Notes under the pieces: model-generated
Databases searched by the model: none
What the model saw: only the letters and a program-made list of their open reading frames with translations
What the model was told of the DNA's origin: nothing
Shown here: piece after piece, positions 2,016 through 52,677 of the stretch
How positions within the stretch are numbered: position 1 is the first letter of the stretch
Layout: every line of letters begins with the position of its first letter
Origin: Armatimonadota bacterium
Lineage (GTDB): Bacteria > Armatimonadota > Fimbriimonadia > Fimbriimonadales > Fimbriimonadaceae
Assembly (NCBI GenBank): GCA_018268255.1
Contig: JAFDWX010000004.1
Span: 186,001-250,000, forward strand
Length of the DNA stretch: 64,000 nucleotides
Direction of reading: 5' to 3'
Made by a program: the position numbers and the translations under genes

Positions 2016-3461
2016 ATGTTACACCGCGAGATGCTTGTCAATGGAGTCTTTCTTGGCGGAGTCTGCGATCAGGGGACGGGCAAACAACTCATTCGGTCTC
2101 CATATGATCATTCTGTTGTGGGAACGGCGGCGGAAGGCGGATGGTCCGAGTGTGATGCCGCTTTGCACTCCGCCGCGCAAGCGTTCCCAGCCTGGAGTGC
2201 AACCCCACAGCAAACTCGGTCTGACCTTGTCAACCGGATCGCAGATGCGATCGAGGCGCGAACACCAGAGCTAGCCGAACTGATGGCGCTGGAGATCGGT
2301 AAGCCGATTTCGGTAGCTCGCGGCGAACTGGAACGCACTGCCATTACTTTTCGGCTGGCGGCGAACCTTAAGAACGAACAAGAGAATCTCGATCTGAGCT
2401 ACGACAAACGAGGTCCGGGTTTTAGAGCAACGGTCCGTCGAGCTCCCATCGGGGTCGTCTTGGCAATCTCACCATTCAACTGGCCGTTCAATCTGGCGGC
2501 GCACAAGATCGGCCCGGCGCTGATGGCCGGCAACACAGTGGTTGTCAAGGGCTCAAGCCAGGCTTCCCTTTGCACTTTGACCTTGGCGCGTATCATCCAC
2601 GAAGCGGGGTGCCCCCATGGAGTGTTCAATGCTGTCAACGTCCCTGGCAAGCTCGCAGAAAAAATGGCCTTGGATGATCGCGTGGCCAAAGTCAGCTTCA
2701 CGGGCTCGCCCTCGGTCGGATGGGGGCTCAAGCAGCTGCTTCCCCACAAAAAGGTAACTCTGGAACTGGGCGGAAATGCCTTTGTAATCGTGGATTCGGT
2801 AGGGGACGCGGAGAAGTTCGCATCCGAAATGAACGCTGCCGCCTATGGATATGCCGGCCAGGTCTGTATTTCGGCACAGCACGTTTTGGTGCGCCGTGAG
2901 CTTTTTGCAGAAGTAAGCGGTGCCCTTGCATCGGCAGCGGCGACCGTGAAAGCAACCGATCCCCTTTCCGAAAATTCGCTGTGTGGGCCACTCATTTCCG
3001 AGGACGCCGCCCGGCGCGTGGAATCATGGTTATTGCACGCCACTGAATCTGGTGCACGAGTTCTAGCTGGTGGAACCCGCAATGGGACTCTGATTGATCC
3101 CACGCTCGTCGAGGTCTCCGATTTCGGCTCGATGCAAGCGAAAGGTGTCGCACTCACTTGCGATGAAGTGTTCGGCCCAGTGCTCACCGTTTCGCCCTTC
3201 AACGTTTTCGACGAGGCACTGAATTGGATCCAGGCAAGCCAGTTTGGAATCCACACATCGGTTTACACAGACGACGAGGAACTTATCGAAAAGGCATTTG
3301 ACACGCTCCCGGTTTCAGGCCTGATCGTGAACGCGCCACCAACAGTGAGGTTCGACTCAATGCCCTACGGAGGGGTTCGACGAAGCGGCTTCGGGCGAGA
3401 AGGGGTGCCGTACACCTGGCTTGAGATGTCCGAGCCGAAAGTCATCGTCCGTCGCAATTAG
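2016..3461 (+). CDS. NAD(P)-dependent aldehyde dehydrogenase
   Basis: Oxidises an aldehyde to its acid (or acyl form) with NAD(P)+. Motifs run in family order: ISPFNWPFNL with the catalytic Asn (about 155 from this start), FTGSPSVGW for cofactor binding, LELGGNAF with the general-base Glu (about 250), GQVCISAQ with the nucleophilic Cys (about 284), and CDEVFGPVLTVSPF. Length, 481 residues, is normal. The frame stays open upstream to 1938, but that part overlaps pyrF and its promoter; ATG 2016 with TTTAGG before it, or ATG 2031, is the likely start. The substrate cannot be read from sequence; the C-terminal PYGGVRRSGFGREG resembles succinate-semialdehyde and glyceraldehyde-phosphate types. Confidence 0.9.
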   Translation: MLHREMLVNGVFLGGVCDQGTGKQLIRSPYDHSVVGTAAEGGWSECDAALHSAAQAFPAWSATPQQTRSDLVNRIADAIEARTPELAELMALEIGKPISVARGELERTAITFRLAANLKNEQENLDLSYDKRGPGFRATVRRAPIGVVLAISPFNWPFNLAAHKIGPALMAGNTVVVKGSSQASLCTLTLARIIHEAGCPHGVFNAVNVPGKLAEKMALDDRVAKVSFTGSPSVGWGLKQLLPHKKVTLELGGNAFVIVDSVGDAEKFASEMNAAAYGYAGQVCISAQHVLVRRELFAEVSGALASAAATVKATDPLSENSLCGPLISEDAARRVESWLLHATESGARVLAGGTRNGTLIDPTLVEVSDFGSMQAKGVALTCDEVFGPVLTVSPFNVFDEALNWIQASQFGIHTSVYTDDEELIEKAFDTLPVSGLIVNAPPTVRFDSMPYGGVRRSGFGREGVPYTWLEMSEPKVIVRRN

Positions 3462-6900: not shown

Positions 6901-7479
6901 GTCTTGGGTTTGCTCCAAACGGCGCAGTGCCTCGTGGCGTTTGGCTCGATAACGCTGAACCCCTGCGGCTTCATCGATCCACGCTCGGCGATCCTCGGCA
7001 GAAGCGGCCAAAGCGGCGTCGATTTCCTTCTGGCCCACAATCGCGTAACCCGCCTTGCCCAACCCTGAGTCCGCCAGAACATCAAAAATGTCCTTTTGAC
7101 GGCACGCCTGTTTGTTTAGGAAGTACTCGCTGTCGCCGTTTCGATGCACCCTACGGGTGATAGAGACTTCGGGCGTGTCAACTGGGAGAGAGCCGTCCTC
7201 GTTATCGAAGAGCAGCATGACCTCGGCATAGCTGTGCGCTTTCCGATTTTGGGAGCCCGCGAAAATCACTTCGGTAGCATTGGCCGCACGCAGATTTCGA
7301 GGCTTGGGCTCTCCCAGCCCCCACAAAATCGCATCGACGATATTGCTTTTGCCGCACCCGTTCGGCCCCACGATAGCGACTAGTTCGCCATCCAGGTCAA
7401 ATTCGGTCTTTTCGGCAAAGGTTTTAAAGCCGACGATGCGTACGCGTTTGAGTCTCAGTGCTGGTGCTCCAAAGTTCAA
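3964..7479 (-). CDS. smc: Chromosome segregation protein SMC
   Basis: Condensin ATPase that compacts and segregates the chromosome with ScpA and ScpB. The 1171-residue product shows Walker A GPNGCGKSN (38-46), a Q-loop region, long heptad-rich coiled coils (about 170-500 and 690-1010), a hinge (about 515-680, including GGVAARTGHG), the ABC signature LLSGGERALAASAL, and Walker B PLVIFDEVDAPLDG near the C-terminus. Length is typical. The start is uncertain: TTG 7479 is used, and a six-pair hairpin (7480-7499) sits directly before it with no obvious ribosome site. It lies 35 bases downstream of the flavin reductase gene on the same strand. scpA and scpB are not in the window. Confidence 0.97.
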   Translation of the reverse strand: MNFGAPALRLKRVRIVGFKTFAEKTEFDLDGELVAIVGPNGCGKSNIVDAILWGLGEPKPRNLRAANATEVIFAGSQNRKAHSYAEVMLLFDNEDGSLPVDTPEVSITRRVHRNGDSEYFLNKQACRQKDIFDVLADSGLGKAGYAIVGQKEIDAALAASAEDRRAWIDEAAGVQRYRAKRHEALRRLEQTQDHLARVEDILNEIERQRGPLEAEAEIARKYKAAQHELRGVESALMMVEVAQAIGDLREVEARINTGTARSKNVGRELESLSVELDVAQSQLAELDRKLDALADLQRSTFAAKERALARITLCEQRLTSLDELEQSLNTQVEAESQRLEQLDADLEQAKVEEAELESRLEALQIAAGQSTESAHAVTLALKSLSERIDQAKTLEHARLRWQTENEFAAKRQKEIRRELEGIEEGASQLEQGVAEAQLEVDRLQAELAKFKSDEEAREAFAKETRAKLAALEREVSQISAEIGALTGRKRGLESTIESLDGLSLGSRSVLEGVENRELPDRYTPVGLAISVPTDLATAIETALGASVNDLIVPHESDAKAAIEFLKKSRGGRATFQPLSLMRSRRDDPELDRLLGTSGIIGVAADLVECDPEFRPAIASLLARTVITESLDVALRHAKSRGWSKLVTLDGEVVHASGAVSGGVAARTGHGVVHRKSELEAVELEIAKLEKARDALHKQKEAIEMQASSAQSQMVDLGEQTAVVEAHAEAVQWRDQLVAESRESSRQKDRLTGELERLAKQGEEPQLPEDITALEAEREETLTRAARESADAEAARQQLVELRSRVDQARTRRRDTERRLDLESSSGEQRTKRLGGLNTEREQIREEIVHQRQEITETDARIQKQAKEIESAGQDRSRQLEKSFQVSEQIKELENQSRDLSTLMHQAELERAKLDSKRAAALQRLMEAYEITEEEALLQAPNLEIPDDATTTVNRLRREIRAMGDVNLGAIESFERLTERYEELSTQRNDILEGKEQVEASIRELDKLTRDRFATTFEAVKTEFQTLFTRLFGGGEGTIMLTKPDNLLETGVEVEVTVPGKTKKRLELLSGGERALAASALIFSLLKVKPSPLVIFDEVDAPLDGRNVERFIEVMREFGKRSQFLCITHNNLTIEASPIWFGVTMQEPGITSVIPYRTTGGQTAGRVYVQGN

Positions 7480-7499
7480 CGCCGCATCAATAGGCGGCG
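7480..7499 (-). promoter_or_regulatory. Hairpin abutting the smc start codon
   Basis: On the minus strand CGCCGC pairs with GCGGCG around an eight-base loop, ending immediately before TTG 7479. No T tract follows and no clear ribosome-binding sequence is free. It could affect smc translation or may simply be a weak 3' structure of the flavin reductase message. Confidence 0.35.
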
Positions 7500-7514
7500 A
7501 GTATCTTTGGGACG

Positions 7515-8147
7515 TTAGGAAGGCAGAATTGGGCGCGCCAGTTCAGAGATTTCAGGCTCGTTGAGATCGATGTATTCGTTTCCACCCATCCGGCCGACGG
7601 GACGAATCATGCCCGGTTTGAGAGCATCGCCAGTGAAAAGGCTCTCCTCGGCGTGGATCCTCACCACTTCCCCGATCACATAGTTCGTTCCGAAGGGTCC
7701 CGCTCCGTGTTTCACGATTTCGAAAAGTCGACACTCAAACGCGATGGGACTTTCCGCAATGCGGCTTGCCCTTACCAAATCGCATTTCATCGGGGTAAAG
7801 CCGCTGAATTTCCATTCATCGACTTCAGTCGGATAGTCGACCCCCGTCTGATTCATGCCGGGAACCATTGCCCGGTTGACCATATGGACCACGAATTCCC
7901 CCGTCTCCTCAGCATTTCTCAGACTGTCCTTGGGTTCTCCGGATTTGAGATTGGCTGGGCAGTAGCAGAGGCTCGCCGGATTCACTCCTCCGATCACGAA
8001 GTAACTGAACGGTGCCAGATTGGGAATTCCGGCTGAGCTGATCGTGCTTACCAGAGCGATGGGACGAGGAGCAATGGCCGCGACTAGGAGATCATAGACG
8101 AGCGATGTAGGCGCGTCCGGCGGAGAAAATGAGCGTGTGGCCACCAC
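7515..8147 (-). CDS. Flavin reductase-like FMN-binding split-barrel protein
   Basis: The 210-residue product fits the flavin reductase domain family. Features are APRPIALVSTISSAGIPNLAPFSYF near the N-terminus (FMN phosphate loop), CYCPANLKSGEPKDSLRNAEETGEFVVHMV in the middle, and a conserved GxNYVIGEVVRIHAEE strand (sequences given in part). Members reduce FMN or FAD for partner oxygenases or act as stand-alone oxidoreductases; no partner is nearby. The GTG at 8147 is the only plausible start because the next in-frame Met is deep inside the domain. It precedes smc by 35 bases and may be cotranscribed with it. Confidence 0.85.
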   Translation of the reverse strand: MVATRSFSPPDAPTSLVYDLLVAAIAPRPIALVSTISSAGIPNLAPFSYFVIGGVNPASLCYCPANLKSGEPKDSLRNAEETGEFVVHMVNRAMVPGMNQTGVDYPTEVDEWKFSGFTPMKCDLVRASRIAESPIAFECRLFEIVKHGAGPFGTNYVIGEVVRIHAEESLFTGDALKPGMIRPVGRMGGNEYIDLNEPEISELARPILPS

Positions 8148-45864: not shown

Positions 45865-46820
45865 GATGGATCTGTACCTCCGTCTAGGAAATAAGCTTGT
45901 TCGTTCGTTGTTCCATCGTAATCCGGACGAAACATGTAAGGATGGCAAAACGCCTTATCCCAGTAGCGACCGCAAGGCTTGTCCTTGTAGTAACGGGCCC
46001 ACGGGTCGACTCTCGGATCAGTCCGTTGGGTCTTGCTTGTGCCGCCGATTCCGAGCTTCCGAGATCGTGCGCTGGAATCGGAGTAGATCATGATAATTGC
46101 GCCTGCATAGAGATCGACGCCTCGCGTTGAGGTGTTTGTGGTGTAGCCGCTCGTCCCGCCATTTCCCGTCGCACAAGCTGTGCCGCTAGGCACATAAGTG
46201 CATGGGGCATTGGTGGTATCGCATGTCAGCCAAGGCGAGGCATATCCATAGCCATACAGAGCACGCTTTCCGTGTCCGTGCCAGAACACGGGAACACTGG
46301 AGGGTGACTGGATTCCACCCTGGTTGTAGCCGTGAAGTAACCCGTTGTACGTGTAAGAGATACTGGGGAGCCCCGTCGGCTGAGTCGCCGGACCATAAGA
46401 ACCAGATGTTGCAAGGGTACTGCCATTTGGTTCGTTCAGTATCTGGACATTCTTCATGTAAGGTTGCATGCTGTTCAGCACGAAGGAGTTTGCTGCAGCA
46501 AGTTTCCATGCCGGTTCCGTGGCCGCCAACTGAGTAGCGGGGACGGGCACAAACCGATTGTAGTTCCACCCACCAACAGGATCACTTGGATGGAATGCTA
46601 ATGCAAATGTATCGTCATTGTCGTTGAGATACATCTGGATGGCGATACCCATTTGTTTTCCATTGCTGAGAGCCGATGTTTTCTTGGCTGCCATCTTAGC
46701 TTGGGCAAAGACCGGGAACAGGATCGCCGCCAAGATCGCAATAATTGCAATGACAACCAACAGCTCAATCAGGGTGAATGCCCGAATCTTTGCTGCGCTC
46801 TGTCTAAGATTTCTCTTCAT
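45852..46820 (-). CDS. Prepilin-like secreted protein
   Basis: The 322-residue product has a prepilin leader ([14 protein letters not shown], then [20 protein letters not shown]) and [21 protein letters not shown], as in the gene at 8266. The body is Gly/Thr-rich; no clear H-x9-DG motif is seen near its end, unlike the 8266 protein. GAGGAATCT stands before the ATG. It is followed by a small lipoprotein that overlaps its last 13 bases. It is probably surface-located. It is divergent from the rplJ leader. Confidence 0.88.
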
Positions 46821-47083
46821 AGATTCCTCTAAACCAGTGGTCCGCCGTCAATTGGCGGTCACAAAAGACAACGCTGTATCTTTCTTAACCTGCTACTATA
46901 CGCCACAACCGTACTATTGTGGGGATGGAAATTGCCCGATGTCTCTGGGTACCATACAAATTCGCTCTCTAAAGACAGCCGGCAATCGGGTTCGCCCGAT
47001 AGAAGTCCAGCCGAGGGGTAGTCGGACAAAACAGCCATCATACGTATTTTGAGGCAGGCTCCTTGCCGTTGCCGAGACTGAGT
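46821..47083. other. Divergent intergenic region before rplJ
   Basis: No gene is supported here. It holds the 5' leader of the prepilin-like gene (with a short inverted repeat, CCGCC with GGCGG, near 46842-46857) and the upstream part of the rplJ leader. Promoters are expected in both directions but no pair of boxes is convincing. Confidence 0.5.
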
Positions 47084-47116
47084 TTGGGCTCCCGATCTAC
47101 CGGATTGGGAGCCCAA
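47084..47116 (+). promoter_or_regulatory. Probable L10 leader hairpin (rplJL autoregulation)
   Basis: TTGGGCTCCC (47084-47093) pairs perfectly with GGGAGCCCAA (47107-47116) around a 13-base loop. It lies 15 bases before the strong ribosome site AAGGAGG of rplJ and has no T tract, so it fits a translational autoregulatory leader bound by the L10-L12 complex (known for this operon class). The fit to the L10-leader consensus was not tested. Confidence 0.5.
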
Positions 47117-47140
47117 TCGCATTCTAAACAAGGAGGAAAC

Positions 47141-47815
47141 ATGCCTACAGAAGCAAAAGCCGAAGCCATTGCCGAAGCCAAAGGCCTTTACGAGAAATCG
47201 CTGGGCGTGATCTTTACGGATTACCGCGGCGTTAAAGTGAAGGAAATGCAGAAGCTGCGCCGCGATCTCAAAGCCAAAGGCGGCGAGATTCACGTGTTGA
47301 AAAATACGCTGTTCCGTATCGCAGCTGGCGAGAGCGTTGTGTCGAGTCTCCCGTATGAGCTCCACAACGGGCCCACCGCCGTCGCATTCATTTATGAAAA
47401 CGAAGGCGAGTGCGCCAAAGTCATCACCGACTTTGCAAACTCTCACAAGAACCATTTTCAGGTTAAGGGCGGCTATTTTGGCAAGCCATTCGACCAGAAA
47501 GGCGTGGAAGCGCTGAGCAAACTGCCATCGCGCGACCAGCTCATTGCTCAGGTTATCGGAGCCATCGCGGCACCGCTGACCAACCTGGTTGGAGTCATCG
47601 AGGCTTTGTACGCCGACCCGATCCGTGTGATCGGAGCCGTGGCCGACAAGGTCGCCGAAGGCTCACCAGTGCCGGAACCCGCTGCTGCTGCACCTGCTGA
47701 ACCAGCTCCTGCTGATGAAGCACCCGCCGCAGAGGCTCCCGCAACCGAAGAAGCCGTAACCGAATCCCCCGCAGCCGAAGAAGCTGCCCCGTCCGAAACC
47801 CCAGAGGAAAACTAA
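47141..47815 (+). CDS. rplJ: 50S ribosomal protein L10 with acidic Ala/Pro/Glu tail
   Basis: Base of the ribosomal stalk. The 224-residue product has the normal L10 core (about 1-175: IFTDYRGVKVKEMQKLRRDLKA, KNTLFRIA, HNGPTAVAFIYE, L12-binding C-terminal helix). A low-complexity acidic tail of about 45 residues follows (Ala, Pro, Glu repeated), which is not standard. ATG 47141 follows AAGGAGGA by a few bases. rplL follows after 15 bases. rplK and rplA, often upstream, are not here; the neighbour is a divergent prepilin-like gene. Confidence 0.96.
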   Translation: MPTEAKAEAIAEAKGLYEKSLGVIFTDYRGVKVKEMQKLRRDLKAKGGEIHVLKNTLFRIAAGESVVSSLPYELHNGPTAVAFIYENEGECAKVITDFANSHKNHFQVKGGYFGKPFDQKGVEALSKLPSRDQLIAQVIGAIAAPLTNLVGVIEALYADPIRVIGAVADKVAEGSPVPEPAAAAPAEPAPADEAPAAEAPATEEAVTESPAAEEAAPSETPEEN

Positions 47816-47830
47816 GAGGAATTTACAACA

Positions 47831-48220
47831 ATGGCAACTACCGTTGAATCAATCGTTGATCAGATTAGCAGCATGACCGCGCTTGAGCTGAGCGAGCTCA
47901 AGAAGGCTCTTGAAGACAAGTTCGGCGTGACCGCCGCGGCTCCCATGATGGGCATGCCCATGATGATGCCGGGCATGGGTGGCGGCGACGCTGCTCCGGC
48001 CGAAGAGAAGACCGAGTTCGACGCGATTTTGAGCGATGCTGGCGGCCAGAAGCTCCAGGTCATCAAGGTCGTCCGCGAATTGACCGGTCTCGGCCTCAAG
48101 GAAGCCAAGGACCTGGTCGATGGCGCTCCACAGCCGGTCAAGCAGGGCACCAACAAGGAAGAAGCCGAGAAGATCAAGAAGGCTATCGAAGAAGTCGGCG
48201 GCAAAGTCGACATCAAGTAA
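47831..48220 (+). CDS. rplL: 50S ribosomal protein L7/L12
   Basis: Ribosomal stalk protein that recruits translation GTPases. The 129-residue product has the N-terminal dimer domain (about 1-35), a flexible hinge (about 36-60), and the globular C-terminal domain with the conserved [21 protein letters not shown] (in part). The hinge carries a Met-rich run ([14 protein letters not shown]), unlike the common Ala/Gly-rich hinge. It follows rplJ by 15 bases; a strong terminator follows at 48242. Confidence 0.97.
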
Positions 48221-48241
48221 TTCCCTACTTGTTGGGAAAAC

Positions 48242-48277
48242 AAAAGCATTCAGGGTTTCTCCTGGATGCTTTTGTCC
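48242..48277 (+). terminator. Intrinsic terminator after rplL
   Basis: AAAAGCATTCAGG (48242-48254) pairs with CCTGGATGCTTTT (48261-48273) with one G-T pair and a six-base loop, followed by GTCCTTT. Confidence 0.85.
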
Positions 48278-48593
48278 TTTAGGGCTTGCTCGGGTCGCCG
48301 CTTGGGCCCGAAGCCAGGCCCGATGCTGGGACCCCGGTCGCTCCGCGCCCGCCCAGCATTTCGCCCCCAACCGGCGACCGACTCTGTTGGGTGGCGGGAT
48401 TCCATTTGAACTGTCTGGCGAAAAAAGGGGTTGGTGGCAGAATTGAGACCTGTTCCAGCCCCGCGGACGGCGAGGTGGGCGACGCGCCAGCGTCGGGGTC
48501 CCATCTCGGGGAGTGGCCTCCGGGCCGGGGCTGGACACCGTTCGTGGTCGCCAGATCTAGTCTTAACGACCGTGACGAAAGAAAATAGCTAAC
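48278..48593. other. Repeat-bearing intergenic region
   Basis: No gene is supported; the open frames here are not protein-like. It holds one 80-base repeat (48455-48534) and, at about 48290-48350, a GC-rich stretch (containing GATGCTGGGACCCCGG) that looks like a diverged inverted copy of the same repeat. Confidence 0.6.
48455..48534 (+). repeat. 80-base intergenic repeat family 2, copy 1
   Basis: This unit and 50251-50330 are both 80 bases long and match at 76 positions. Each begins CCAGCCCCG and ends CGGGGCTGG, so the ends are inverted copies of each other. It is in the same orientation as copy 2, about 1.8 kb away. Confidence 0.8.
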
Positions 48594-48782
48594 ATGGGTG
48601 TGGTAAGCATCGTCTGTAAGGCAATCCACATGAGACGCAATTCTGGGACTTTCGATGGATTAGGTTCTGCACCAAAAAATCGACTTAATAACGTGCGAGC
48701 CGATCTGGATGACGACAACGCCGTCACCATCTATGATTACCAGATCTTGAGCAACAACTTCGATAAGCACGGTGACAATTAA
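48594..48782 (+). pseudogene. Remnant or stand-alone dockerin-like module
   Basis: The 62-residue frame ends ADLDDDNAVTIYDYQILSNNF followed by DKHGDN (21 residues shown in two parts). This aligns closely with ADVDRDGVVTIFDYLTISNNF plus DMSGDL at the C-terminus of the dockerin-tailed protein at 9149-10858. It lacks the signal peptide and upstream domains of that protein, so it looks like the surviving 3' end of a larger gene. The stop TAA shares a base with the ATG of the next gene (TAATG). A functional small peptide cannot be ruled out. Confidence 0.6.
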
Positions 48783-49867
48783 TGAAAATCCTAACGCTTA
48801 TCGGAGCTAGTTTAGTGTATGGTGCGGCGCAGGCCGCACCACAGTATAAGGCTACAACCCTGCAACCTCCTGCCATTACTCAGCAAGTCATCGGATTATG
48901 GGCTAGCAGCAGAGCGAGTCATCAGTTTATTGCAGGTTCGATACTCTATCTTGACAATGGCGACGTATCGAGAGCAGTGGTATGGCGGAACGATGTACCC
49001 GAGATTTTGCCGCCGGCTGAACCAGACAATCAGCACGCATTATGTATCGCGGCCTACTCTGATCAATCGGTGCTCATCAGAGATGGTTACACTGGTAAGT
49101 GCTACTGGTACAAAGATGGAGCCTTTACAAAGATAGACACCCTTGGCAAAGGTATCTATGTTCAGCAAGCCAATAAGAATCGTCAATTTGCTTTGTTGCT
49201 CAACAGTTCTACGTTTCAAGATCAAGCCGCACTTTGGCAAAATGACGTGATTGCGCCACTCAACGGGATCGGATACCGAAGCCGAGCTTACGGGATACTG
49301 GAGGATGGAACAGTACTCGGAAACGCAGAACAGCCGAATCAGTTTGGCGCAGCCTGTATCTGGAAACCCGGCTCGCTCAATCCGACTCTGCTCAACGTAC
49401 CCGGGATTGGCTCACGGATCGAACGTGGAACTTCGAATGGCTACTACTTCGGAATCCGCACCCTAGAGGACTATTCCAATGCGCCGTTTCTGTATAAAGA
49501 TGGACTGTCCACCGACCTGGTTAAACCTCAATGGTATGGTGATAATCCTTTCGTTATCGGCGTTGACACTTCGGGGCGAGCGATCATCCATACTCAAAGC
49601 AGCACTTACGGCGTAAAAGACACGCTCTGGGACCATGGAGTGCCATACAAATTTACCGACTTGATCCTTGATTCTGAGGTGGCGAATAACTTTCCAACTT
49701 TGCGCAGTATGTCCGAGGATGGCACCTTATTCGGTGGCTACCTCACACCTGATTTCAAATACACAGCAGTGGTTTTCACCCCCGTACCCGAGCCTGCCTC
49801 CATGGCTATCCTGGGTCTCGGTGCATTAGCCGTATTGCGTCGCCGTCGTGGCAACGGGGGTCGATAA
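48782..49867 (+). CDS. PEP-CTERM secreted protein
   Basis: The 361-residue product has a signal peptide (about 1-18, ending AAQA), a body with repeated short beta-rich units (YKDGAFTKI, LYKDGLSTDL, LWDHGVPYKF, and the like) that suggests a propeller-type fold, and a PEP-CTERM tail (VPEPASMAILGLGALAVLRRRR). Codons look more AT-rich than in neighbouring genes. The ATG shares a base with the stop of the dockerin remnant. It lies between two direct 80-base repeats. Function unknown; surface or secreted location is likely. Confidence 0.78.
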   Translation: MKILTLIGASLVYGAAQAAPQYKATTLQPPAITQQVIGLWASSRASHQFIAGSILYLDNGDVSRAVVWRNDVPEILPPAEPDNQHALCIAAYSDQSVLIRDGYTGKCYWYKDGAFTKIDTLGKGIYVQQANKNRQFALLLNSSTFQDQAALWQNDVIAPLNGIGYRSRAYGILEDGTVLGNAEQPNQFGAACIWKPGSLNPTLLNVPGIGSRIERGTSNGYYFGIRTLEDYSNAPFLYKDGLSTDLVKPQWYGDNPFVIGVDTSGRAIIHTQSSTYGVKDTLWDHGVPYKFTDLILDSEVANNFPTLRSMSEDGTLFGGYLTPDFKYTAVVFTPVPEPASMAILGLGALAVLRRRRGNGGR

Positions 49868-49974
49868 CAACTTCCATCGACGCAAGGCCGCGCTGCTGAC
49901 CGAGCCTCCCCCGGGGACTTCACTAACGATCGCCAGCCCCGGGGGCGGACTCTTCTGCGAAGGTTCGTGCACGG

Positions 49975-50014
49975 ACCACCCCGCCCTGCGGGCACCCCTC
50001 CGGCGGAGGGGAAT
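49975..50014 (-). repeat. Intergenic hairpin repeat family 1, copy B
   Basis: On the minus strand it reads ATTCCCCTCC-GCC-GGAGGGG, then TGCCC-GCA-GGGCG, then GGGTGGT. Both stems of copy A are kept while the loops differ. It faces copy C head-to-head across about 146 bases. Confidence 0.7.
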
Positions 50015-50160
50015 ATTCGCATATTGAGTTTCCCTGGGGATTGGCATCGCATAAGCCCGCTGTTTGAGGTGAGTTTCCGCCAGTTGCTGCGGGGTCATCA
50101 GTTGGCAACCGAAAGAGCGATACCAACCGGCGACCATCAGCGAACGATTGTCCCCGCGTG

Positions 50161-50200
50161 ATTCCCCTCCTTCGGAGGGGTGGCCCTAAGGCCGGGGTGG
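50161..50200 (+). repeat. Intergenic hairpin repeat family 1, copy C
   Basis: ATTCCCCTCC-TTC-GGAGGGG, then GGCC-CTAA-GGCC, then GGGGTGGT. The second stem has different bases from copies A and B but still pairs, which is a compensating change. Confidence 0.7.
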
Positions 50201-50250
50201 TGTCAGAAAGCAGATGAACGAGGCAAGTACGTTAATGCGAGGCTCGGCTA

Positions 50251-50330
50251 CCAGCCCCGGGGGCGGCGAGATGGGCGACGCGCGAGCGTCGGGGTCCCAT
50301 CTCGGGGAGTGGCCTCCGGGCCGGGGCTGG
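50251..50330 (+). repeat. 80-base intergenic repeat family 2, copy 2
   Basis: Same length and orientation as 48455-48534, with four mismatches. It ends about 50 bases before the OsmC start. Confidence 0.8.
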
Positions 50331-50381
50331 GCCAACGGCAAAACCCAACGAGACCTCCCTCCCTCGGATACACTGGAGCAG

Positions 50382-50837
50382 ATGGCACACTTGCACGAGT
50401 ACCCAGTTCTCGTCGAATGGACCGGCGGCCGAGAGGGCCACGGCAACGTCCTCTCCGAACGATCCGGAATCACCAATCCGCTCAGCGTTCCGCCCGAATT
50501 CCAAGGTCCTGGCCAGGGAACCAATCCTGAAGAGCTCCTCACCAGCGCAATCGCCGCATGCTACAGCATCACCTTCGGCATCGTGGCTGCAAACCAAAAG
50601 CTGCCCGTCAACACCTATTCCGCAAAGGCAGTTGGAGTCGTCGAGCAAGCAGGAGCGACGTTCACCTATAAGTCGATCACCATCAAGGCCGAAATCCAGT
50701 TGGATCGTTCCGCCACCGATGAGCAGGTCGCCAAAGCGGAAGATATGGCCCATCGCGCCGATGCGTACTGCATCATCACCAATGCTGTGCGAGACAAAGT
50801 GAACATCGTGGTCGAGCCGACCATTACGCGGGGCTGA
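50382..50837 (+). CDS. OsmC/Ohr-family peroxide-related protein
   Basis: The 151-residue product fits the OsmC fold: GTNPEELLTSAIAACYSITF with the first Cys, and AHRADAYCIITNAVRDKVNIVVEP with the second (both in part). These are the paired peroxidatic cysteines of organic hydroperoxide reductases. It starts at ATG 50382 with GGAG five bases upstream; the frame is open upstream through the repeat, but that part is not protein-like. It leads into tpiA after six bases. Role: detoxifying organic peroxides (family knowledge). Confidence 0.9.
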   Translation: MAHLHEYPVLVEWTGGREGHGNVLSERSGITNPLSVPPEFQGPGQGTNPEELLTSAIAACYSITFGIVAANQKLPVNTYSAKAVGVVEQAGATFTYKSITIKAEIQLDRSATDEQVAKAEDMAHRADAYCIITNAVRDKVNIVVEPTITRG

Positions 50838-50843
50838 TCCAGA

Positions 50844-51641
50844 ATGCCGAGAAGACCCTTCGTCGCCGGAAACTGGAAGATGAACAAAACCTCCAGTGAA
50901 GCTCACCAGTACGTCACTGAGTTCGTTGGCTTGGTCAACGAGATCACTTCGGTCGACATCGTGCTGTGCCCACCCTACACATCACTTGCGCGGTTGAATG
51001 AAGACCTTGCCGACGAGAACGTGAAGTTGGGTGCCCAGGATGCCTTCTGGGAGGACTCGGGGGCGTTTACATCCTGTATTTCGGCTGGAATGCTTAGCGC
51101 GGAAAAGATCCCCTACTGCATCGTGGGCCACAGCGAGCGACGCGGGCGCTTCGGCAAGCTGGAAATACCGGAAACTACCGTCGGTTACTTCGGTGAGACC
51201 GACGAATCGGTCAACCTCAAACTCAAGGCGCTGGCCAGGGCCGGAATTACGGCGATCTTGTGCGTCGGTGAGACTCTGGCGGAACGCGAGGCTGGCAATA
51301 CGGATTCCGTGATCGAAAATCAGCTCAACGCCGCCCTAGATGGTCTGGGAGATGATGCGCTGAAATCGCTCATCATCGCATACGAGCCGGTGTGGGCCAT
51401 CGGCACCGGCAAGACCTGCGATACACCTGAAGCTGAGCGAGTCTGCGGGTTTATTCGTCAGGTACTTGCGGATGCAACTTCCCCGCACTTGGCGATGGGT
51501 TGCCGTATTCTCTATGGAGGAAGTGTCAAACCGAGCAACGCGCAGGACCTCTTTAGCCAGGAGAACATCGACGGTGGACTGGTTGGCGGCGCTAGCCTGA
51601 TTGCCACCGACTTCGCCGAAATCGTCAAGGCTGCCGTATGA
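50844..51641 (+). CDS. tpiA: Triosephosphate isomerase
   Basis: Interconverts dihydroxyacetone phosphate and glyceraldehyde 3-phosphate. The 265-residue product has FVAGNWKMNK (Lys12), GHSERR with catalytic His96, AYEPVWAIGTGK with Glu181, and the phosphate loop YGGSVKPSN. A block of about 13 residues (near 101-115, GRFGKLEIPETTVGY) separates GHSERR from FGETDE, where most TIMs have two residues. It lies between the OsmC gene and the thioesterase gene, overlapping the latter by four bases (ATGA). Confidence 0.96.
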   Translation: MPRRPFVAGNWKMNKTSSEAHQYVTEFVGLVNEITSVDIVLCPPYTSLARLNEDLADENVKLGAQDAFWEDSGAFTSCISAGMLSAEKIPYCIVGHSERRGRFGKLEIPETTVGYFGETDESVNLKLKALARAGITAILCVGETLAEREAGNTDSVIENQLNAALDGLGDDALKSLIIAYEPVWAIGTGKTCDTPEAERVCGFIRQVLADATSPHLAMGCRILYGGSVKPSNAQDLFSQENIDGGLVGGASLIATDFAEIVKAAV

Positions 51642-52189
51642 GCGAAGGGATCGAGTCAAGGTCGGTAAGTTCAACTGAGGTTCAAATCGCCGAAATCGTC
51701 GAGCCGGGAGATGCGAATTTTCTCGGCAAGATGTTCGGTGGCGCCGTGTTGGCAAAAATCGACCTCTGCGCTTACGCGGTTTCCAGCAAATTTGCGGGCA
51801 CGATCGCCGTCACGGCTAGCTTCGATCGTGTGGATTTCCACGAGCCCATCGAGGTTGGTGAACTCCTGACTTTGATCGGGCACGTCACCTTCGTGGGCCG
51901 CACCTCGATGGAGGTCACCATCGAGCTTTATGCCCACAACCTCTTCAGCGGCAATCGACGGCACACCAACACGGCGCGTGTTACAATGGTCGCGCTGAAA
52001 GATGGAAAACCGTGTCCCGTCCCGCGGCTGCATTGCGAAACCCGCGAAGAGAGGATTCGATATCTCGAGGGACACATTCGTCGTGAACGGAGAAAAGTCT
52101 ATCGAGCCGCGCTCGAACAAGAATTCAAGACGCTTCAGACCTTGTCGGATGCGGAACTTGATGCCATGATAAAGTCATCAACTCCCTGA
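51638..52189 (+). CDS. Acyl-CoA thioesterase (hotdog fold)
   Basis: The 183-residue product matches the YciA/BACH-like group: GDANFLGKMFGGAVLAKID near the N-terminus, FDRVDFHEPIEVGELLTL and RTSMEVTIELYAHN (in part), with a basic helical C-terminus. It probably hydrolyses acyl-CoA thioesters; chain-length preference is unknown. It overlaps tpiA by four bases and its stop shares a base with the next gene's ATG (TGATG), so OsmC, tpiA, thioesterase and lipoprotein form a likely four-gene unit. Confidence 0.88.
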   Translation: MSEGIESRSVSSTEVQIAEIVEPGDANFLGKMFGGAVLAKIDLCAYAVSSKFAGTIAVTASFDRVDFHEPIEVGELLTLIGHVTFVGRTSMEVTIELYAHNLFSGNRRHTNTARVTMVALKDGKPCPVPRLHCETREERIRYLEGHIRRERRKVYRAALEQEFKTLQTLSDAELDAMIKSSTP

Positions 52190-52677
52190 TGCGAAAAACT
52201 TCCCTCCTTTTCAGCTTTGGCGTGATCATCCTTTTGGCTGGGTGCAGCACGCGTCCGCCCGCGGCCAATCCGGATTTTGTCGAGCAGTTTGATCTCCTCG
52301 CCAAAACACCGCCGGACGCCGTAACCTCAGTCGAACTAGTGGGAGTGCTTTCCAAAAAGACTGCCGACGGAAAACTCGGCGATCCGCAGGTGATTACAGA
52401 ACCGCACGAGATCAAGGCTATCTGGCACTCGGTAGTGAACGAGACTTCGAAGAAGAACAAGGCCAAAGTTCCGCCTGTCCAATCGCCCGACATCATTCGA
52501 TTCAATATACGTCACAAGCCACCGATCACCATTGACTTCAGCGTGGACGAAGCTTCGAAATACTTTGGCCCGAACCTCCAAAAGTTGATCGAGTTCTATA
52601 AGAAGAAATCTAAGTCGGCTGATAATGCGCCAGATCCAAAAACCGCCCCAAAAGATCCCGATCATAGCGGTCCATAG
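52189..52677 (+). CDS. Lipoprotein of unknown function
   Basis: The 162-residue product has a lipoprotein signal with lipobox LLAGC (Cys about 19), then a soluble domain with no recognised family; the middle has PQVITEPHEIKAIWHSVV and the C-terminus is Lys/Pro/Asp-rich. Translation is probably coupled to the upstream thioesterase. The last 68 bases overlap the end of the convergent TPR gene, where both reading frames look usable. Function unknown. Confidence 0.72.
   Translation: MRKTSLLFSFGVIILLAGCSTRPPAANPDFVEQFDLLAKTPPDAVTSVELVGVLSKKTADGKLGDPQVITEPHEIKAIWHSVVNETSKKNKAKVPPVQSPDIIRFNIRHKPPITIDFSVDEASKYFGPNLQKLIEFYKKKSKSADNAPDPKTAPKDPDHSGP

Follow-up and report, generated by a model that had tools for sequence, protein, structure and literature searches.

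The segment that follows the genes we take to be rplJ and rplL (names that come from the initial annotation and from relatives matched by sequence) raises the question of whether a PEP-CTERM surface-protein gene lying between direct repeats was brought there as an acquired island, or whether it sits in a cluster built from the repeats themselves. The window, by which we mean the whole 64,000-nucleotide stretch that was analysed, is G000:C4:186001-250000, part of a genome (G000) of 3.19 Mb in nine contigs that is 98.5% complete. The initial annotation described an island bounded by two 80-base direct repeats, and its parts are all present at the coordinates given: the direct repeats at 48455-48534 and 50251-50330 are identical at 76 of 80 positions and spaced 1796 nt apart, the 62-residue dockerin-like fragment is an open reading frame lying between them, the PEP-CTERM gene (GC 0.506, GC3 0.508) is richer in AT than its neighbours, and the inverted pair of repeat family 1 (49979-50014 and 50161-50196) is 81% complementary. 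The bounds need correction, however, in that the 80-mers are present but are not outermost, an inverted third member of the family lying at 48296-48378, and although the pair is real it is not particular to this locus, with 48 matches genome-wide. The corrected unit spans approximately 48294-50330, starting to the left of the first 80-mer, and reads as a minus-strand element, a plus-strand 80-mer, the gene cassette, a truncated 80-mer, a REP-like inverted pair, and a second plus-strand 80-mer. Its features are as follows, R1 being a covariance model based on an alignment (A1) of 19 G000 copies that was first folded.

48296..48378, minus strand: hairpin element of a second subtype, at the left edge of the composite just past rplL (R1 66.8 bits, E 2.6e-11)
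48455..48534, plus strand: 80-nt hairpin element, left direct copy (76/80 identical to 50251-50330; R1 75.7 bits)
48555..48593, plus strand: point from which the paralogous C6 cassette is homologous (local alignment with L047 from 48555; a boundary without a repeat)
48594..48782, plus strand: 62-codon ORF corresponding to the second half of a dockerin-like terminus with two loops (ORF list, comparison of copies)
48782..49867, plus strand: PEP-CTERM surface-protein gene with a HAF-repeat-like body, 361 aa (PF07589, E 4.9e-7)
49933..49948, plus strand: truncated 80-mer start, 16 nt (identical to positions 1-16 of 50251-50330)
49975..50014, plus strand: REP-like repeat family 1, forward copy (inverted-pair comparison)
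50161..50201, minus strand: REP-like repeat family 1, inverted copy (inverted-pair comparison)
50251..50330, plus strand: 80-nt hairpin element, right direct copy (R1 84.0 bits; the exact right block edge at six loci)

The composite is modular, and its left edge, gene cassette and right block are each found in other combinations on contig C6, which supports the earlier proposal of a segment assembled by recombination at repeats. The 80-mer is found repeatedly at the borders of variable segments. A gene-less composite of 583 nt at G000:C6:111037-111624 (L048) has the left part, 48294-48478, fused directly to the right part, 49940-50335; its homology with the window begins at the outer stem of the 48296..48378 element, it carries a 20-nt version of the truncated 80-mer start at the corresponding place, and in both composites a minus-strand element comes first and a plus-strand 80-mer last. 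The cassette, 48555-50335, has a paralogue at C6:233667-235619 (L047), 82-90% identical in three blocks that cover the genes; upstream of it the 80-mer and the left element are absent, and it is flanked by sugar-kinase-like and transporter-like genes, as named by eye. The left cassette boundary at 48555 coincides with no repeat. The right block, which ends exactly at the 80-mer, is present at six loci, and in all 15 pairwise comparisons between them the 80-mer is 89-100% identical versus 54-86% for the rest of the block. At the two gene-bearing loci the 80-mers (50251-50330 and L047 7535-7614) are identical at 80 of 80 positions versus 215 of 274 for the rest of the block. The 80-mer is thus either under stronger constraint than the block around it or homogenised on its own. 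Repeat family 1 has 11 copies genome-wide with no more than two mismatches to the pattern of the forward strand.

The 80-mer is a structured element. The copy at 50251-50330 folds with z = -5.2 and none of 200 shuffles equals it, and the copy at 48455-48534 folds with z = -3.0 (1 of 200 shuffles equal). In the fold of A1, 10 of 23 predicted pairs have changed on both sides with pairing kept, and compensatory changes run through the outer stem, the inner stem and the apical hairpin, whereas the G-rich loops are constant. Among 66 distinct aligned copies (alignment A2), 97.0% of 1507 pair cells form standard pairs and 251 cells are altered on both sides; sliding the 3' side by 1-3 columns brings pairing down to 31-53% and the covariation score from 0.489 to 0.038-0.109. 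A2 was fitted to the model and its pair counts lean towards it, and double changes, like the G-T cells described below, count inherited copies more than once. Two tests were made without A2, on copies that were still found with the model and with those misfitting the anchors skipped. In the first, on 64 of the 66 copies, the outer arms pair within their own copy with a mean best of 8.95 out of 10 versus 7.24 across copies, a value reached by none of 5000 permutations. In the second, on 60 of the 66, the inner stem, with the constant loop letters as anchors, gives 330 Watson-Crick, 17 G-T, one A-C and 12 other cells, and because G-T exceeds A-C by 17:1 one strand, the plus strand of the 80-mer as written here, is the folding strand. 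The element therefore has polarity. In 9 of 66 copies, versus 1.5 expected, the stem extends by at least four further pairs into unique flank. The 66 copies leave out a 67th R1 match (L147:81-159, E 0.0068) and three weak G000 matches (C6:151986, C1:169619 and C5:291951); those read outside G000 are mostly the best-scoring ones, being 15 of 29 from G001, 2 of 5 from G043, 3 of 5 from G004, the single one from G002, none of 5 from G003 and none of 2 from G023.

The family is confined to a narrow lineage. At E<=0.01, R1 matches occur in 7 of 61 related genomes, with 48 in G000, 29 in G001, five each in G003, G004 and G043, two in G023 and one in G002; at E<=1e-4, 6 of 291 genomes across the phylum have a match, all in one bacterial family. 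An exact-pattern scan of a genome collection, with a pattern that recovers 48 of the 66 known copies and so misses some, returned 18 stretches, all from Armatimonadetes-type MAGs, with record titles that include Chthonomonas sp. UBA2391 and UBA2017, Fimbriimonadaceae bin.224_sub and Armatimonadetes SZAS-2. The literature searched, with subscription journals outside its coverage, holds no description of such repeats for Armatimonad-, Fimbriimonas or Fimbriimonadaceae, and the 80-mer is apparently an undescribed, lineage-specific dispersed hairpin repeat of about 80 nt. A new family of the general stem-loop kind is in itself unsurprising, given that a systematic survey of such families in 40 bacterial genomes exists (PMC2267715).

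We consider it probable that 48294-50330 is a cluster of hairpin elements at the end of rplJL with a duplicated PEP-CTERM gene inside it, produced by modular joining and by copying of a folded strand. The modules would have come together through recombination or duplication at copies of the element, and the paralogues would have been partly homogenised afterwards; the element would fold, either as single-stranded DNA or in the form of a separate RNA, and would be copied by some non-Y1 activity in the manner of REP/BIME or MITE sequences. Recombination or duplication at the elements has the modular copies as its basis, and we infer spread as folded single strands from the polarity, structure and copy number. 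The explanation is weakened by the lack of an empty orthologous site, by the absence of target-site duplications from the composite in the window and at L048 and their near absence from single elements (at least 5 nt at 2 of 66 versus 0.9 expected), by a left cassette boundary that lies off the repeats, and by no mobilising enzyme having been found. With its co-varying stems, fixed loops, single folding strand and carriers that lack Y1, the family offers a clean natural case for studying the spread or upkeep of REP-like elements without a RAYT, and since it is small, lineage-limited and found with one covariance model, carriers and non-carriers are directly comparable.

The 361-residue product of the PEP-CTERM gene has a C-terminal PEP-CTERM motif (PF07589, 30 bits versus a cut-off of 20.7) and resembles the PEP-CTERM/exosortase HAF-repeat proteins in this C-terminal sorting signal, in the HAF-like repeats of its relatives and in the presence of an exosortase gene, of which G000 has one. 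HAF_rpt (TIGR02913) is found in 7 of 10 aligned relatives, the window protein falling below the threshold used. The structure model (pLDDT 75.8) is mostly beta with an N-terminal and a C-terminal helix, and the best matches among solved structures include many beta-propellers with modest TM-scores, so that the predicted fold is beta-propeller-like. G000 has 64 PEP-CTERM matches at E<=0.01, of which 62 are over the cut-off (one only together with its neighbours). Compared with the C6 copy, the gene has an overall dN/dS of 0.29; dS exceeds 1 in the first 160 codons, where one 40-codon block is saturated, and is 0.16-0.59 thereafter, the four-fold-site contrast between the gene parts reaching only p = 0.038. 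This suggests an old duplication that may have been partly homogenised later. The gene is ordinary save for its place among repeats.

The upstream 62-codon ORF, whose stop overlaps the PEP-CTERM start as TAATG, corresponds to the second half of a dockerin-like terminus with two loops that is whole in seven genes at the loci fetched. Full-length genes with the corresponding terminus match Pfam Dockerin_1 (one of three just below the cut-off), and in the tests for a type I dockerin the 62-residue product has one calcium loop, not two, and no Dockerin_1 match. The initial annotation called it a dockerin remnant, and it is indeed half of a dockerin-like terminus, but its status as a remnant is uncertain: the frame is open in both copies with a dN/dS of 0.22, and nonsynonymous changes fall below the neutral level (11/22, p 0.008). 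Judged from these substitutions, it may tentatively be regarded as a small gene that has been kept rather than as debris.

Several other readings of the element and the locus merit consideration. The first takes the 80-mer for a structured RNA with a function, or for an element of transcript ends (a terminator, a stabiliser of mRNA 3' ends or a small RNA), conserved in place and not mobile. The strand-specific pairing, with constant loops and compensatory stems, is as such a reading would have it, and so are the contexts of the 45 G000 copies (with genes called by a simple codon score), where convergent gaps (12) outnumber divergent ones (5). However, of the other copies 14 lie between genes that run with the element, 13 between genes that run against it and one is ambiguous, and 14 versus 13 shows no preference of orientation relative to genes. 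At one of the 15 G001 loci read, two neighbouring genes are shared with a G000 element locus, and here the copies of the two species of this genus (L118 3726-3804 and L150 3218-3297) lie 62 and 58 nt past the 3' end of a common gene, as expected for a transcript-end element, but in opposite orientations relative to it. Three further G001 loci have one or more flanking genes in common with such a locus, at about 50-82% identity, and most of the remaining G001 positions do not coincide with element loci of G000, which counts against conservation in place; gene order is poorly kept between the species, and the mostly differing positions are no proof of movement. In the Rfam scan of 46000-52500, eight matches were found at E<=10 and none near a gathering score. 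Of the 8 nt that follow the element, five or more are T in only 1 of 66 copies, and an intrinsic terminator is rejected for this reason. Taken together, we regard a functional RNA as unlikely.

A second reading takes the 80-mer to be a new kind of mobile unit that folds as a single strand and is moved by a non-Y1 enzyme, with inverted pairs that capture and shuffle neighbouring genes. It draws on the coexistence of gene-less and gene-bearing composites in one genome and on the frequency of surface-protein genes as neighbours. A hairpin element lies within 300 nt downstream of 4 of the 64 PEP-CTERM matches, with p 0.0006 under a circular-shift null that ignores the preference of elements for gene ends and p 0.02-0.03 when a Poisson expectation is roughly estimated for an assumed total of 2700-3100 genes, and the association is weak. 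Gene capture of this kind seems quite unlikely to us. The four matches concerned, all distinct from the PEP-CTERM gene described here, are at G000:C4:115264, C8:359909, C2:187772 and C1:169704.

The third is that of a horizontally acquired island, in which a mobile unit with the 80-mers at its ends brought the PEP-CTERM gene from elsewhere. Direct repeats on both sides, the existence elsewhere in the genome of the composite without the gene, and base composition could all be so explained, the PEP-CTERM gene having the lowest GC3 of the 55 window genes (GC 0.550, sd 0.022; GC3 0.625, sd 0.045). The gene is thus AT-richer than the genes around it, as the initial annotation supposed, but two G000 paralogues are equally AT-rich (GC 0.501 on C6 and 0.499 on C5). 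The nearest relatives are paralogues within G000 itself, the C6 copy being anciently diverged and mosaic relative to the window gene, and divergent homologues occur across the family; at E<=0.001 they number 70 of 85 genomes, with many of the matches confined to the C-terminal signal. Between the repeats there is no long integrase- or transposase-like ORF, by eye, beyond the two ORFs described; no plasmid match (DNA) or phage match (protein) was found in the collections searched, a pattern scan of viral contigs gave no match, and the composite has no target-site duplication. Recent import is thus not borne out, an island is distinctly improbable, and what lies here is a cluster of repeats and not an island of recent acquisition.

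The place where the rplJL operon ends is no conserved landmark: the adjacent downstream gene is never common to any two of 20 relatives, and it differs from the window's in all 20 examined, leaving no empty orthologous site. The osmC-tpiA-thioesterase run is itself conserved and adjoins rplL, among the relatives examined, only here. With a different gene after rplL in each of these 20 relatives (L067-L086), rearrangement is frequent at this operon end in the family. G001, of the same genus and rated 98% complete, has no rplL match, probably owing to a gap in its 160-contig assembly.

Weakest is the view of the 80-mer as a REP/BIME of the classical type whose mover, a RAYT-type Y1 transposase, was later lost. 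This would suit an intergenic, high-copy, palindromic element found together with a shorter REP-like repeat in inverted pairs, but it is highly improbable: PF01797 is found in 0 of 7 carriers (G000 included) yet in 40 of 61 genomes, and none of the 66 copies has GTAG within 12 nt of a foot on either side. As the seven carriers have no Y1 transposase, a RAYT is rejected as mover for the living carriers.

RAYT transposases are the proposed movers of REP sequences in two papers (PMC6006769, PMC3733652), the second of which, Di Nocera et al. 2013, covers REP/BIME repeats including GTAG and CGTC families. Like the repeats in that account (PMC3733652), the 80-mer is a short, many-copy intergenic palindrome in co-directional and convergent gene gaps, with subsets distinguished by their stem or loop and copies that are often paired in opposite orientation; nearly all of the 45 G000 copies are intergenic, a few overlapping the ends of mechanically called ORFs. 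It differs in being 80 nt long with stacked helices and constant loops, where a REP is a hairpin of 20-40 nt, in having no GTAG tag, and in its restriction to a few genomes of one family whose carriers lack Y1. A CGTC-tagged REP is rejected: among the 66 copies, CGTC lies within 12 nt of an end in 4 cases at the 5' side and 5 at the 3' side. MITEs and small mobile repeats such as enterobacterial RU elements (PMC2759123) are similarly non-coding, dispersed and palindromic at about 80-130 bp, whereas the 80-mer is without a target-site duplication and has no known parent transposon. The inverted ends of the window and L048 composites, with a minus element at the left and a plus element at the right, resemble those of a composite transposon or MITE.

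Integron attC sites are imperfect palindromes in which structure is conserved over sequence and one strand folds, and they lie beside a gene cassette. The 80-mer has each of these properties, but its conserved letters are in the loops rather than the stems, and its copies are isolated with no cassette array. R boxes (RYYYAAC and GTTRRRY) are paired at the foot in 0 of 66 copies, in either order, and attC is rejected.

Copy orientation shows no bias with local GC skew either in G000 (18 of 45 positive, p 0.23) or in G001 (10 of 15, p 0.30). The paralogous cassettes form a mosaic: between 48555-49960 and L047 5668-7040, identity is 0.55-0.72 at 48841-49200 and 0.87-0.98 at 49201-49740, dips to 0.64 at 49741-49800, and is then 0.88-1.0 up to 49960, a pattern that in these alignments looks like partial gene conversion. 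A run of N (L047 6465-6646) lies inside the C6 PEP-CTERM paralogue, and the comparison excludes that middle part. At L056, two near-identical elements of another subtype (3195-3273 and 7464-7542) lie 4.3 kb apart in a common orientation, an arrangement that resembles the direct pair of 80-mers at 48455-50330.
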